From Longitalea arenae (GTDB taxonomy: Bacteria; Bacteroidota; Bacteroidia; Chitinophagales; Chitinophagaceae), in NCBI RefSeq assembly GCF_016924755.1, contig NZ_JAFFJX010000003.1:434001-498000 (forward strand): DNA of 64,000 bases. The letters run 5' to 3'. Shown here piece by piece: positions 34,770 to 39,999 of the stretch; position 1 is the stretch's first letter; the number at the start of each line of letters is the position of its first letter. The translations under genes and the position numbers were made by a program. The notes beneath the pieces were generated by a model, which did not search any database, was not told the DNA's origin, and saw nothing but the letters and a program-made list of their open reading frames with translations.

Positions 34770-35135
34770 TCATTGAACGATCCATACCAGTTTATTGAAC
34801 AATCAATAACAGTTTATTGAACGATCCATACCAGTTTGTTGAACAACCTGGTATGGTTTATTGAATACTAGCACCCAATTCATTGAACAATCAGGTATCG
34901 ATCATTGAAAAATCAGCGGAGTTTATTGAACAAACTGAACCTGTTTGTTGAACAAACCGAACCTGTTTGTTGAATACTCAGAACAATTTTTTGAACGATC
35001 TGACCCCATTTCTTCAACGATCAACCCCTGTTTATTGAACGATGTAACCATATATTTGAAATCCAGGCGCTGTTTATTGCATTCCTGGAACAGATCCTTC
35101 AACGATCTGTGCTGTTTTTTCAACACCTCACAGGA
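34770..35135. repeat. Degenerate 21-22 bp tandem repeat array, about 17 units
   Basis: Some 366 bases consist of consecutive units of 20-22 bp (mostly 22) sharing the core TTATTGAACGATC, each unit about two helical turns. The first three units are nearly identical; later ones diverge, with TTGAAC/TTCAAC kept most strictly. Many units contain the small dyad ATTG-AA-CAAT. There are no spacers, so it is not a CRISPR array. In-frame stops recur, and the overlapping short frames on both strands (88-90 codons) show no consistent protein pattern. Its role is unknown. Confidence 0.85.
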
Positions 35136-35210: not shown

Positions 35211-35385
35211 CGTTTAGGGTTTGCACTAATTCAAAAGCCTCTTTAAGGGTTGGGTGATTCAGGGTTTGCGGTTCGCGGGTTTGGGGATCCGGCATTTGGG
35301 GGGATTCGCGGGGTTGCGGGTATTTCTAAGCCCCTTCAGAGGGTCTGGGGGTCGGGGTTTTGGGGCTGGGAGTTCTGGGGTTTGG
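35211..35385 (+). repeat. G-rich tract with quadruplex potential
   Basis: The plus strand is a GGGTTTG/GGGG-rich stretch with few C. The part at 35341-35370 has five consecutive G runs of three or more separated by 2-4 bases (GGG, GGGGG, GGGG, GGGG, GGG), satisfying the usual G-quadruplex pattern. It lies directly beyond the terminator of the adjacent RNA-like element. Confidence 0.65.
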
Positions 35386-35390
35386 CGGTA

Positions 35391-35665
35391 AAGAAAAAAG
35401 GTCCTCTGTAGAAACAGCCGACCTCTAACGATTGCTTGCCATATGAAAAAAAACCTAAGTCTGTTTTGTGTGAAGCTTTTGCTTCGTGGTAGCTCCTTCT
35501 TTTCTGCTCCTCTTACCGTGCTACCGTTGTTGATGATGTAAAAGTACATTGCCGCAGAGCACCTTCAAAAGCATGTTTTTACTGGTTTTATGATCCCAAA
35601 GCTGCTAAATAAATGGCAAAACCCTGATCCCGCAAAGGTTTCATTGAATTTCAGCATTGGTCTCC
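35391..35665 (-). ncRNA. Candidate structured RNA element, copy 1
   Basis: A ~275-nt minus-strand element homologous to 38931-39207. It starts with GGAGACCAATGC about 50 bp after the stop of the trehalose-synthase-like gene. It then has an ATGTA/TACAT hairpin (35536-35549) and a GGTAGC/GCTACC stem (35488-35493 with 35520-35525) enclosing a purine-rich loop. It ends in a 63-nt block identical to copy 2, with a bipartite hairpin (AGGTC..CTGT-loop-ACAG..GACCT) and a T-rich tail forming an intrinsic terminator. A 96-codon frame crosses it but is not conserved in copy 2. It may be an independent small RNA or a 3'-UTR cassette. Confidence 0.65.
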
Positions 35666-35712
35666 AGCCGGAAAAAAAGCTTATTGTTTTTATCATAATT
35701 GCTGCCGCTGGC

Positions 35713-37464
35713 CTATTTAACAAGCTCAAACCAGCCATATCCATAGCCATCTATATGCAGCTTCCATTCTGTTTTACCGGTTTCGATCAGTGCGCCCCTG
35801 TTAATAACTGGTTTTGCAACAGCATCCTTCAATACACTGTCGCCGGCGCGAAAGGCCTGTGCTGCTCTTGAAAAATTAATTACACTCAACAGGCTTTTTC
35901 CCTGCCAGCTATATACGATACCAAAAATATATGGATTGTCAGTTTCCAGTATTTTCCAGCTGCCCGCGCCTATTTCGGGGTGCTGCCGTCGCAATTGTAC
36001 CATGTAACGCGTCCAGTTCAACAGGGAGCTGCTATCGCCGTTTTGCAAGGCTACATTCCGTTTGTGAAAAGAATATTCCCCGCTGTCAATCACCGGTCTT
36101 ACCGGCCTGGCAGCCATAGAAAATCCGCTGTTGCGTTCGGCTGACCATTGCATTGGCGTTCTTACAGATTCCCGCTCTTTCAGCTCCTGATCATCGCCCA
36201 TGGCAATTTCATCACCATAACGCAGCACGGGTGTACTGGGCAAACTAAACAGCACCGCATAGGCCAGTTCCAGTTTTTTGCGGTTATCGTTCAACATGGG
36301 CGCCAGCCTTCTTCTGACGCCGCGGTCATACAATTGCATGCTTTGCTGCGGACCCATGGAATCGTACACGGTCTGTCTTTCTTTTTCGCTCAGGCGCCCC
36401 AGGTCAACCTCATCATGATTGCGCAGGAACTGTCCCCACTGGGCAACAGCCGGAATATCTGCCGTTTCTTTCATGGCCCTGATCATGGGCGTTGGGTTCT
36501 CATTGGCAAGCGACAAAAACAAATGCTGGTTCACAAAGAAGTTGAACATCATGTGCATGCCATCCCCTTTTTTACCAAAGTAGTCCTCCTGCTCTTCAGG
36601 CAGCACATTGGCTTCCCCTAAGATGACCGCATCTTTGCGCAGCGATTGCACATAATGCCGCAGGTTAGTAAGCATCTCGAAACGATGTTCGAATTTATCG
36701 CCTTTCGTTTTCGGAATTTCTATATAAAACGGAACACCGTCGAGCCGGAAACCCGCTATGCCCATGTCCATCCAGTGTTTAATTATTTTTTTGATCTCCT
36801 GCTCCACCCCGGGGTGCTGGGTGTTTAGATCGGGCTGAAATTCATAGAACCGGTGATAATAATATTGCTTCACAGCCGGCGCATAGGTCCAGGTGCTCTT
36901 TTGAACGCCGGGAAATACCATACCAGTATGTATATTGTCGGGCTTCGTAGCCGACCAGATATACCAGTCATGATAGGGAGAGCGCAGGTCCTTGCTGGCC
37001 GCTTTGAACCAGGGATGCTGATCAGAAGTATGATTGATCACCAGGTCCATGATCACCCGCATATTGCGCTCTTTTGCGGCCGCCATGAATTCCCTGAAAT
37101 CGGTAAGGGTGCCCAGTCTTTCGTCCACCGTATAATAATCGCTTACATCATAACCGTCATCCCGGTTGGGCGTGGGTTGAAATGGGGCCAGCCAGACAGC
37201 GTCTGCGCCCAGGGAATCAATATAACCCAGCCTGCTGGTCAAACCATCAAAGTCACCCACCCCATTATTATCGGAATCTTTAAACACCTCTACATCGAGG
37301 GTGTAGATGACACTGTTCTTATACCACAATAAACCCACAGCATCTGCCTGTCGTGTGGAACCCGTTTGCTGCAACTTATTTTTATCATGGCCTGGTTTTC
37401 TTATCAACCAGAATATCAATCCGGTGACAACCAGGATGATAACAATCAATATTCCTTTTTTCAT
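35713..37464 (-). CDS. Membrane-anchored trehalose-synthase-like GH13 enzyme
   Basis: 583 residues from ATG 37464 (MKKGILIVIILVVTGLIFWLIRKPG), an N-terminal anchor or uncleaved signal; the frame upstream to 37560 is not used. The catalytic triad is D242 (GFRLDGVP), E283 (LGEANVLP) and D350 (LRNHDEVD). The stretches LRNHDEVDLGRL, RGVRRRLAPML and LRYGDEIAMGDD are hallmarks of trehalose synthase (maltose-trehalose isomerase) and its close relatives. Standard TreS is cytosolic with an N-terminal YKNAVIY-type start; here the enzyme seems exported or membrane-bound, so it may act on periplasmic maltose or as an amylase. Copy 1 of the RNA element follows its stop codon. Confidence 0.85.
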   Translation of the reverse strand: MKKGILIVIILVVTGLIFWLIRKPGHDKNKLQQTGSTRQADAVGLLWYKNSVIYTLDVEVFKDSDNNGVGDFDGLTSRLGYIDSLGADAVWLAPFQPTPNRDDGYDVSDYYTVDERLGTLTDFREFMAAAKERNMRVIMDLVINHTSDQHPWFKAASKDLRSPYHDWYIWSATKPDNIHTGMVFPGVQKSTWTYAPAVKQYYYHRFYEFQPDLNTQHPGVEQEIKKIIKHWMDMGIAGFRLDGVPFYIEIPKTKGDKFEHRFEMLTNLRHYVQSLRKDAVILGEANVLPEEQEDYFGKKGDGMHMMFNFFVNQHLFLSLANENPTPMIRAMKETADIPAVAQWGQFLRNHDEVDLGRLSEKERQTVYDSMGPQQSMQLYDRGVRRRLAPMLNDNRKKLELAYAVLFSLPSTPVLRYGDEIAMGDDQELKERESVRTPMQWSAERNSGFSMAARPVRPVIDSGEYSFHKRNVALQNGDSSSLLNWTRYMVQLRRQHPEIGAGSWKILETDNPYIFGIVYSWQGKSLLSVINFSRAAQAFRAGDSVLKDAVAKPVINRGALIETGKTEWKLHIDGYGYGWFELVK

Positions 37465-37578
37465 ATGATAAAATCCGGCTTGCGGTGCCGTATGTGTACA
37501 ATTACGATACCACGCTGCTGGCGCATTTTTAGCATATAAAAATTGGTAATGCCAAAGCATACTATAAAGCTTAGCGCG

Positions 37579-38154
37579 ATGAATAGCCTGTTAACATTAT
37601 TTGATCAACCGCCCCTGCTCCCGGAAGGATTTCATTACACCCCGGAATTTATTACGGTAGAACAGGAATCGGAATTACTGGCAGTTATTGAGCAGCTGGA
37701 ACTGCATGCCATGGTATTCCAGGGATATACCGCAAAAAGAAAAGTCGCCAGCTTTGGTTACGATTATAATTTCACAACACGGCAATTGACCAAAGGCCAG
37801 CCGATACCCGGCCAGTTCGACTGGCTGATCGATAAGGTAGCGGCTCAGTTAATGATCAGCCGCGAACAAATTGCAGAATTGCTGGTCACAGAATATCCCA
37901 TGGGCGCCGTGATCAACTGGCACCGCGATGCGCCGCCTTTTGACCGGATCGCAGGCATCTCACTGGCAGGGGATTGCATATTTAAATTAAGGCCGTACGA
38001 CAGATCATTACGAACAAGAAAGTCCAGCATCTCTTTCCCCGTGAGGCAAAGATCTCTATACATCATGCAGGGGCCGGCGAGGAGCGACTGGGAACACAGC
38101 ACAGCGCCGGTAACAGCAACGCGTTACTCAATCACTCTTCGAACACTTGCCTGA
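37579..38154 (+). CDS. AlkB-like 2-oxoglutarate/Fe(II) dioxygenase
   Basis: 191 residues from ATG 37579 (MNSLLTLFDQPPLLPEGF); a longer TTG-started frame is less likely. The Fe(II) ligands H115 and D117 (NWHRDAPPF) and H173 (WEHST) and the 2-oxoglutarate arginines R182/R188 (RYSITLR) are intact. YNFTTRQL and the substrate-lid SFGYDY region match AlkB. These enzymes repair 1-methyladenine and 3-methylcytosine by oxidative demethylation, though some relatives act on RNA or protein. It is divergent from the GH13 gene. Confidence 0.85.
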   Translation: MNSLLTLFDQPPLLPEGFHYTPEFITVEQESELLAVIEQLELHAMVFQGYTAKRKVASFGYDYNFTTRQLTKGQPIPGQFDWLIDKVAAQLMISREQIAELLVTEYPMGAVINWHRDAPPFDRIAGISLAGDCIFKLRPYDRSLRTRKSSISFPVRQRSLYIMQGPARSDWEHSTAPVTATRYSITLRTLA

Positions 38155-38197
38155 TGCGCTGGCATGAATTTTAAAGCTCATTACTCAAAATTCATAT

Positions 38198-38914
38198 ATG
38201 GAAACCTCAACCGTTTTAGAAGGTTATAGCGACCAGGAGAAAGGCGCTTACCTGGGCGCCATTGCCTCCATTGCTACTGCAGACCGGCATGCTTCGGAGG
38301 AAGAGCTGCAATCTCTTGAAGCCCTCTGCGATGCGGCCGATATTTCTGAGCAACAGAAACAAGCGGTGATCCAGGCAGCGAGCGAGTTAAGCGGCGAAGA
38401 GCTCAGGAAATGCCTGGATATCTTAAAGAACAGCGACCTCAAATATTCCCTGGTAGCAGATCTTATCGCATTTGCAAAATCCGATAACAATTACGGCCAG
38501 GAAGAGCAGCAACGGGTACAGGAAATTTCGCAATACCTGGGGGTTGACCAAAAGCAATTTTCATTACTCAATGAATTTACCGATAAAGCAACTGCTGCTA
38601 AGGATGTACCGCCCGAAGAAAAGGCAAAGCCATCCTTTTTATCATCGCTTGGTTTAACGGAAAAGCTGAAAGGCGCGGGCATTAATTCAGGCAATCTTAT
38701 GAAAGGGTTATTGGGCATCGCAGGACCTTTGATCCTTGGCGGAATCGTCTCCAATGCGCTGCGCCGTCGAGGCCGCGGAACTGGTATGCTGGGCGGTATG
38801 GGCGGCATGATGGCCGGTGGTGGATTGGGTTCGCTGATCGGCATGTTAAGCGGCGGAAGAGGATTCAGGAATAGCGGCGGTTTATTGGGAAGGATCTTTG
38901 GCAACCGCTTCTAA
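38198..38914 (+). CDS. TerB-like protein with glycine-rich C-terminus
   Basis: A 238-residue protein. The N-terminal ~120 residues form a TerB/DjlA-like helical bundle (AYLGAIASIATADRHASEEELQSLEALCD ... ADLIAFAKSDNNYGQEEQQRVQEIS). This is followed by a linker and a glycine/methionine-rich hydrophobic tail (residues ~165-235, with ALRRRGRGTGMLGGMGGMM) that may insert in a membrane or form aggregates. TerB domains occur in tellurite-resistance and envelope-stress contexts, but the function here is unknown. It lies 43 bp after the AlkB-like gene and is convergent with copy 2 of the RNA element. Confidence 0.75.
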   Translation: METSTVLEGYSDQEKGAYLGAIASIATADRHASEEELQSLEALCDAADISEQQKQAVIQAASELSGEELRKCLDILKNSDLKYSLVADLIAFAKSDNNYGQEEQQRVQEISQYLGVDQKQFSLLNEFTDKATAAKDVPPEEKAKPSFLSSLGLTEKLKGAGINSGNLMKGLLGIAGPLILGGIVSNALRRRGRGTGMLGGMGGMMAGGGLGSLIGMLSGGRGFRNSGGLLGRIFGNRF

Positions 38915-38930
38915 CGAATGAAGGTAGGGC

Positions 38931-39207
38931 TAAAAAGAAAAAAGGTCCTCTGTAGAAACAGCCGACCTCTAACGATTGCTTGCCATATGAAAAAAATCGT
39001 AAAATCTACTTTTATTTGAAACCAGATAACCAATTTATCCCTTTCACTTTTCTTATCCTGTTATCTCTTTGTTTCTGATGTAAAATTACATCGCGGCCTC
39101 CCTTCCTCAAAAGCATGTTTTGGACTGTTTTATGATCCCAAACAGCACAATTGGCCTGTAAAACGCTGGCCGGGCAAGGGTTTTATCAAATTCCGGCATT
39201 GGTCTCC
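38931..39207 (-). ncRNA. Candidate structured RNA element, copy 2
   Basis: A ~277-nt minus-strand element homologous to 35391-35665. It begins GGAGACCAATGC about 55 bp after the stop of a lipoprotein gene. It keeps the block TTTGGGATCATAAAAC and ACATGCTTTTGA, then a GATGTAA/TTACATC hairpin (39077-39092). Its GATAAC/GTTATC stem (39025-39030 with 39060-39065) differs from copy 1 by two compensatory G-C to A-T changes. It ends with the identical 63-nt terminator block, convergent with the TerB-like gene 16 bp away. The frame that crosses copy 1 is interrupted by stops here, which argues for RNA function. Confidence 0.65.
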
Positions 39208-39261
39208 ACCGCTTTAAACCATCAGAAAACAGGCGTTATTTTATCTCATCAGCCGGAAAAT

Positions 39262-39999
39262 CTACTGGTAAGTATAGGTTTTCACGATTGTTCTGCCATC
39301 ACTGCCGGCTGCTGTTTCCTGGTGAAGCCTTTTGCGCTCATCGTACAGGTAGCTGTGTTCAATTTGAATGGTTCGTCCATGGCGGGTAGCATAGGTATGG
39401 GTAGGCAGCTTCGCCACAAACGGAAAATAGAATGGCTCCAGCTGCACGGTATTTTCATGCACGGAATCGTACCGGTAGGTAGTCTCCGCAAAACTCTCCG
39501 AGACCTTCGTAAGTGTTCCTTTCAGATCGTAAACGTAATTGGTGGTGTTAACCAATACCGGCTTCGAAATAAGGTAAGAATGTATGTATTCCTTCTTTTT
39601 TATGAGCCTGTTCTCTTCGTCATAAAAATACCTGAACGAAAGGGTGTCGTTAAGCTTATATTGATAGGCGCTGTCAACCAGCGAATGGCTGTTCAGATAA
39701 TAGGTGCTGTGTTCCGTTACTTTATTGCCTTCAATCTTTTCAAATGTAAATTCATCATCATGCTCGTAGGTATATTCCTGGCGGTAACCGGGTCTTGTTA
39801 CGGATACCAGGCTGCTTAGCCGGCCCGCGGCATCGTAATTAACACTATACGTTTCTACCGTACGGCCTCCGACAGCGGTAATATCTTCGGTATAGGTCTT
39901 TAACTGTTGGGAACCCGTGCTGCTATTACCTGTTGATTCCTTTTTACAGGAAGCATTTACTACAAAAAAAGCTACCAGGGAAAAAGTGATCGTTTTCAT
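39262..39999 (-). CDS. Predicted lipoprotein with YD-type repeats, unknown function
   Basis: A 245-residue protein beginning MKTITFSLVAFFVVNASCKKE, with lipobox cysteine 18. The mature part holds several repeats of the type VNYDAAGRLSSL, FYDEENRLIKKKEY and YVYDLKGTLTKV, ending YLYDERKRLHQE, recalling the YD strands of RHS-like proteins but without a toxin or core domain. Similar solitary YD-repeat lipoproteins occur widely in Bacteroidota with no assigned role. Copy 2 of the RNA element lies directly downstream. Confidence 0.8.
   Translation of the reverse strand: MKTITFSLVAFFVVNASCKKESTGNSSTGSQQLKTYTEDITAVGGRTVETYSVNYDAAGRLSSLVSVTRPGYRQEYTYEHDDEFTFEKIEGNKVTEHSTYYLNSHSLVDSAYQYKLNDTLSFRYFYDEENRLIKKKEYIHSYLISKPVLVNTTNYVYDLKGTLTKVSESFAETTYRYDSVHENTVQLEPFYFPFVAKLPTHTYATRHGRTIQIEHSYLYDERKRLHQETAAGSDGRTIVKTYTYQ

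Follow-up and report, generated by a model that had tools for sequence, protein, structure and literature searches.

Two copies of a closely similar unit lie on the minus strand of a window of 64,000 nucleotides (nt) from the genome of Longitalea arenae (Chitinophagaceae; contig NZ_JAFFJX010000003.1, positions 434,001 to 498,000), copy 1 at the lower coordinates (35391-35665) and copy 2 at 38931-39207. An earlier note on this DNA described them as a structured RNA of about 275 nt. What such a unit encodes, and what its product might do, is the question addressed here. The two copies are very probably genes of a multicopy small RNA family which, as far as tested, is found in Chitinophagaceae only and which apparently has not been described so far. 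From sequence comparisons we further propose, with a probability of about 0.5, that these RNAs act in trans, pairing at start codons to control SusC-type glycan uptake.

Anatomy of the two copies

Re-reading of the letters and of the alignment bore out both minus-strand copies with the shared blocks named in the earlier note, as well as the replacement of the stem GGTAGC/GCTACC of copy 1 by GATAAC/GTTATC in copy 2. The idea of one RNA of about 275 nt did not survive: the 5' half resembles an extended promoter, and the predicted transcript is about 137 nt long. The unit is best read as a promoter region of about 135 bp followed by a small RNA of about 137 nt with a terminator and a T-tract, because a mid-unit element (TGTACTTTTACATC or TGTAATTTTACATC), placed after a TTTTGA block, resembles the -7 box of Bacteroidota, whose consensus we take to be TAnnTTTG, and because this pattern is in excess ahead of the conserved core of the RNA. 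Over 142 copies from many genera, each taken with 400 nt of upstream sequence, TAnnTTTG occurred 51 times between 75 and 149 nt ahead of the core, where about 5 matches were expected by chance; the reversed pattern gave 3. Similar upstream blocks precede further copies in Niastella. The features of the two units are as follows.

Copy 1, minus strand
35532..35665, conserved upstream (promoter) region (sequence, alignment with copy 2, similar blocks in further Niastella copies, TAnnTTTG excess)
35665-35654, block GGAGACCAATGC (sequence)
35600-35585, block TTTGGGATCATAAAAC (sequence)
35570-35565, TTTTGA (sequence)
35546-35538, -7-like box TACTTTTAC (sequence)
35394..35531, predicted small RNA of about 138 nt (promoter box and terminator; putative start site)
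35488..35525, 5' hairpin, GGTAGC (35525-35520) with GCTACC (35493-35488) (stem kept in Niastella copies)
35472..35485, second hairpin, GAAGC-AAAA-GCTTC (present in 35 of 46 Niastella copies)
35423..35453, U-run and invariant core, the proposed seed (conservation, covariance model, duplex tests)
35394..35423, terminator hairpin (35423-35400) and T-tract (fold, covariation, covariance model)

Copy 2, minus strand
39074..39207, conserved upstream (promoter) region (sequence, alignment, further Niastella copies)
39207-39196, block GGAGACCAATGC (sequence)
39142-39127, block TTTGGGATCATAAAAC (sequence)
39112-39107, TTTTGA (sequence)
39088-39080, -7-like box TAATTTTAC (sequence)
38938..39073, predicted small RNA of about 136 nt (sequence, fold; putative start site)
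39025..39065, 5' hairpin, GATAAC (39065-39060) with GTTATC (39030-39025) (sequence, stem survey)
38967..38996, U-run and invariant core, the proposed seed (covariance model, sequence)
38938..38967, terminator hairpin (38967-38944) and T-tract (fold, covariation, covariance model)

The 3' block, from the U-run through the terminator, is identical in the two copies, and copy 2 lacks the GAAGC-GCTTC hairpin. A covariance model of this 3' module, built without the window copies, found both of them in the window with E = 2.1e-15 each. Thermodynamic support for the folds is modest (copy 1, z = -2.2, equalled by 6 of 200 shuffles; copy 2, z = -1.4, equalled by 21 of 200).

In many long-form copies an inverted repeat, TGTACTTTTACA, overlaps the -7 box (35548-35537 in copy 1, and similar boxes elsewhere), and a conserved TTTGGCATAATAAAAC-like block lies upstream; the two are perhaps the site of a shared regulator.

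Constraint on the core and on the helices

The tail of the RNA, UUUUUCAUAUGGCAAGCAAUCGUUAGAGG, is nearly invariant and is joined to a covarying terminator. Among 155 copies picked solely by an exact match to a 20-nt core, nearly all of them distinct loci, the flanking bases are fixed as well, though the core alone was used for selection: TTTT occupies positions -7 to -4 of the core in 98-100% of copies, CAT adjoins it in 95-99%, and the next G is found in 98%. For 34 sequences selected to have stems of one length, all 306 of 306 cells of the terminator helix pair, 34 cells are changed on both sides against a shuffled mean of 10.1, and the covariation score was matched by none of 500 shuffles; the numbers of pairs with a double change (4; 109/500 shuffles) and of further pair types (8; 486/500) did not exceed those of shuffles. 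The terminator loop is UUCU in 99 and UUCC in 34 of the 155 copies.

The 5' stem was followed through the Niastella copies, 61 of them distinct, using the 46 that have a recognisable -7 box. A stem of 6 bp stands at the same 5' position in 39 of the 46, where letter-shuffled sequences gave a mean of 2.9 and a maximum of 6. Eight distinct arm pairs occur, GGTAGC/GCTACC in 29 of the 39 copies; arms can also pair with the partner of another arm pair in 39% of cases, because most arm pairs are variants of GGTAGC. The second hairpin is shared by 35 of the 46. Some copies (L182, L194 and L205) have, within or replacing the 5' hairpin, a CCGCC...GGCGGG hairpin that looks like a short repeat inserted there.

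Selection on RNA structure, as the earlier note had argued from the stem of the two copies, is thus borne out by compensatory changes in further Niastella copies and by the covarying terminator, but not as the chief conserved feature. The strongest constraint is on the near-invariant sequence just ahead of the terminator, not on structure, and therefore points to pairing in trans or to protein binding. One or two extra boxes (up to 3 mismatches) lie in the 250 nt ahead of the core in 42 of 145 copies; the same search with the reversed box gave none in 145.

In the long form, copy 1 (35531-35423) included, the 5' end AACGGUAGC has two possible partners: GCUACC, which forms the 5' hairpin, and GCAAUCGUU in the core. 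In the predicted minimum-energy fold of copy 1, part of the core is paired with the 5' end and the seed is only partly unpaired. This alternative pairing could possibly act as a switch that hides the seed.

Distribution and forms of the family

The earlier note recognised no known RNA family, and indeed the window has no match in Rfam 15 at gathering scores; for 35300-39300, even E values up to 5 gave one chance match alone. More copies with further covariation, which the note had named as supporting evidence, do occur in Chitinophagaceae genomes. The window's own genome has the element at 7 places by blastn with copy 1 and at 7 by the covariance model; the 18-nt core, with at most one mismatch, occurs there 8 times, one of these being the second box of the C6 member. 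Among 59 relatives, the same core search was positive in 28 of the 36 that belong to the window's family and in 0 of the 23 from other families, and the reversed pattern was found in none. A set of 296 genomes from the phylum gave 8 of 11 in the family against 1 of 285 others, the latter a single-mismatch match. With the covariance model, 15 of 149 genomes of the order were positive, all 15 within the family; three family genomes were negative among those listed. The model also recovers diverged members, and most of the 20 that were read keep (A/G)GCAAGCAATCG and the hairpin. Among the matches listed, the exact 20-nt core was found in genera that include Niastella, Niabella, Segetibacter, Hydrotalea, Filimonas, Pinibacter, Sediminibacterium and Terrimonas, as well as in loosely labelled metagenome-assembled genomes, of which one is named Flavobacterium and one Pedobacter. 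The type strain N. yeongjuensis DSM 17621 is among the carriers. The best literature matches, obtained in part with loose terms, included no description of such an RNA in Chitinophagaceae.

Several types of member occur in Niastella, with which the window's genome is provisionally grouped: the long form of the window, found alone or as tandem copies; a form that has two additional boxes; a form in the 3' untranslated region (UTR) of a small lipoprotein-like gene, located behind its stop codon; and a form of about 55 nt with TACATTTG or TACCTTTG a few bases before the core (G000, which is the window's own genome, and G001, G002 and G009). One very short member (L007 1490-1552, at C22:919718 of G000) has TACATTTG 8 bases before CATATGG and the core variant GTTTGAG; this GTTTGAG short member is present as one copy in each of 10 Niastella genomes. 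Many members of the family are tandem. Six IMG/VR contigs (L448-L453) have the core, all of them matching the covariance model (E values from 1e-13 to 3e-5).

Complementarity to start regions of SusC-type genes

Complementarity to the core is concentrated just upstream of start codons in the window's genome. Over 838 script-called genes in 1.26 Mb, four 7-mers complementary to the core rank high in enrichment within the interval -30..-1 (GATTGCT 1, ACGATTG 5, CGATTGC 6 and AACGATT 15 of 8446 seen), and any of the eight core 7-mers is present there in 28 genes, while other 30-base windows gave 5-15 genes and the sense strand 4. SusC genes were tested because the predicted partners are rich in exported proteins. 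At least 56 genes match TIGR04056 in this genome, and at least 56 in a contrast genome of the same family (G015) where the core was not found at one mismatch.

Duplexes were computed between the 31-nt seed and start regions, with shuffled seeds as controls and a threshold of -16 kcal/mol. The 51 SusC start regions of the window's genome had a mean of -15.41 kcal/mol, against -10.81 for shuffled seeds (0/200 as low), and 21 of the 51 were at or under the threshold compared with 56 of 813 other genes (p 9e-11). The SusC genes of the contrast genome had a mean of -11.03 (11/200 as low), and 1 of 30 reached the threshold (p 1e-4 against the window's genome). The signal is also seen with the core half of the seed alone and the upstream bases: SusC starts of the window's genome averaged -8.45, compared with -7.28 for shuffles (2/200), -6.94 for other genes (p 6e-4) and -5.31 in the contrast genome (p 1e-5). 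The terminator, used as a control, gave no signal against these SusC starts (45/200).

Some predicted sites recur between genomes, namely that of a GH5-type gene (kept in G000, G003, G006 and G007) and those of two SusC-type genes (the first shared by G000 and G007, the second by G005 and G007). A cluster of partners at about 667-693 kb of contig C22 in the window's genome comprises fasciclin-domain lipoproteins, a rhamnogalacturonan lyase, a pectate lyase and a GH5-type cellulase. Of 24 pattern sites inspected, from partly picked regions, 17 had an open frame that starts with the matched ATG and runs for 142 residues or more. The pattern AACGATTG-N0-9-ATGAAA was found about 78 times in 10 Niastella genomes (a partly calculated figure, small RNA loci removed) against 49 for a scrambled pattern, and 31 times against 60 in the 23 other-family genomes; this excess in Niastella is suggestive only. 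A search for a long antisense target, with up to three mismatches to the 20-nt core, gave one site in the window's genome beyond the family and the C6 box, and the reversed control also gave one; this candidate was dropped.

Several results weigh against SusC start regions as the targets, a claim founded on one genome and a negative contrast, with partial support elsewhere. In G005, a second Niastella sample, taken from regions at even steps, core 7-mers showed no excess: they occurred upstream of 6 of 513 genes, against 2-13 for other windows and 10 for the sense strand. Its 12 SusC genes (one further SusC gene was dropped since it had been chosen by its match) gave -11.97 with the full seed (5/200; p 0.04 against other genes) and no clear signal with the core half (67/200 and 57/200). 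Among 616 genes close to the RNA in other genera, no core enrichment was present. Even in the window's genome the signal is concentrated: 18 of the 30 best-scoring SusC genes reach -16 compared with 3 of the 21 others. SusC starts were chosen by a scripted signal-peptide score. The half of the seed formed by the U-run and start-codon part behaves alike in this genome and in the contrast genome (p 0.44), being generic to AUGARA starts, and the contrast genome is cleared of the RNA family solely at one core mismatch. The 5' part of the RNA, taken as a control, also beats shuffles for the SusC starts (1/200), with SusC not separated from other genes (p 0.48). The only SusC gene of the window (start 54255) scores -10.1 and is not a predicted target. 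Genes adjoining SusC gave weak results (window's genome, 2/100 shuffles and 2 of 30 at or under -16; contrast genome, 34/100 and 1 of 30).

Alternative explanations

A fixed sequence ahead of a terminator could also be read by a protein. If the box AGCAAUCGUUAGAG were bound by a protein, such as one with an RRM domain, the RNAs would titrate that protein or be carried by it, which is compatible with start-codon pairing. The almost invariant core and the extra boxes (42 of 145 copies, none for the reversed box) agree with this, as do an RRM_1 protein encoded in the sampled G005 DNA and the binding of Bacteroides FopS RNAs to the RRM protein RbpB, described in excerpts of PMC11697453. Yet 103 of the 145 copies have a single box at that cut-off, and the SusC complementarity in the window's genome is left unexplained; we consider protein binding possible, at appreciably lower odds than start-codon pairing. 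An element acting in cis at 3' ends, in termination, processing or stability, and copied behind different transcripts would account for the terminator that directly follows in the aligned copies and for the member type located after the stop codon of a lipoprotein-like gene. It is unlikely: 46 of the 61 Niastella copies have their own promoter box, the short form is little beyond core and terminator, and an invariant sequence of 30 nt is unnecessary for a terminator.

The multicopy, often tandem arrangement and the module on six IMG/VR contigs would suit a mobile or selfish repeat that has no regulatory role and is dispersed by phages or through recombination, but such a repeat is hard to reconcile with presence in 28 of 36 family genomes, with covarying helices and a fixed core, and with the GTTTGAG and 3'-UTR members, each of which reappears as one copy per genome in several Niastella species; we regard it as improbable. 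A tiny conserved peptide deserves almost no credence. The core could encode a frame running from start to stop codon, AUG GCA AGC AAU CGU UAG (MASNR), whose stop is lost in the variants GTTTGAG and GTCAGAG, whose ATG is missing from most upstream boxes, and outside which the bases are equally conserved.

Proposed mechanism

Under start-codon pairing in trans, each RNA would be transcribed from its own promoter and would fold into one or two 5' hairpins with the terminator at its end, the seed, that is the U-run and CAUAUGGCAAGCAAUCGUUAGAG, lying between them. The U-run and CAUAU would lie across the target start codon AUGARA, and GGCAAGCAAUCGUU would pair just upstream. The main targets would be mRNAs for TonB-dependent glycan receptors of the SusC type; some regulators and some secreted enzymes of glycan degradation would be targets as well. 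Pairing at the start codon would most likely block translation, and the RNAs would in this way set the level of the glycan-uptake machinery. We propose translational repression of SusC because the anatomy resembles that of FopS, for which repression has been shown (excerpts of PMC11697453).

None of the 59 genomes had an Hfq match over the PF17209 cut-off, and two weak matches fell under it. To our knowledge, Hfq-free post-transcriptional control in Bacteroidota has been little described outside Bacteroides. A more ambitious and rather doubtful proposal is a master riboregulator of the whole family: each cell would deliver one invariant seed through several RNAs that differ in expression, translation of dozens of SusC receptors would be controlled together without Hfq, and the system would have arisen independently of FopS in another family of Bacteroidota. 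If so, control of susC start codons by RNA would be a solution that recurs within the phylum. Orphan genes, tandem arrays, an mRNA 3' UTR and viral contigs are the proposed forms of delivery. This conserved RNA offers a defined core, natural variants, relatives with and without the core, and a concrete target class. With it one can test how general RNA control of SusC is across the phylum, and by what means a glycan degrader selects among 56 or more SusC genes.

As for their surroundings, the two copies adjoin genes for an alpha-amylase, a TerB-domain protein, a 2OG-Fe(II) oxygenase and a protein without Pfam match. Downstream of copy 1, the stretch 34800-35130 contains many repeats of the GTTCAATAAAC and GTTCAACAAAC types.

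Comparison with known systems

Repeated short boxes within one RNA are a feature of the protein-titrating RNAs CsrB and RsmZ. In the Chitinophagaceae RNA some copies have extra boxes, but the box is different and most copies carry one. LhrC of Listeria monocytogenes is likewise a multicopy small RNA family with a target-binding motif repeated within the RNA, whereas phylum, motif, targets and regulators all differ. Oligonucleotides from a paper on HU in P. gingivalis (a 77-bp inverted repeat near the capsule locus; PMC3969353) contain AGCAATCGTTAGA, probably by chance.

The closest likeness is to FopS of Bacteroides thetaiotaomicron, which excerpts of PMC11697453 describe as 14 paralogous small RNAs with intergenic and 3'-UTR members and a conserved unpaired seed before the terminator that pairs near the start codon of susC-type mRNAs; repression of susC is countered by RbpB, FopS is also reported in a phage, and it has been deposited in Rfam. 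GibS is a related Bacteroides small RNA in that comparison (PMC7366714, likewise in excerpt). The RNA studied here is similarly a set of paralogues in Bacteroidota, with 7 members in the window's genome, a conserved seed followed by a terminator, both intergenic and 3'-UTR members, and a presence on IMG/VR contigs to set beside the phage example; pairing at susC start codons, shown for FopS, is predicted for it. It differs by its occurrence in Chitinophagaceae rather than Bacteroidaceae, by its repeated boxes and by its covarying 5' hairpins. The two were compared by description, and the window copies have no match in the Rfam 15 copy searched; we propose that the Chitinophagaceae RNA works like FopS and do not claim that it belongs to FopS.

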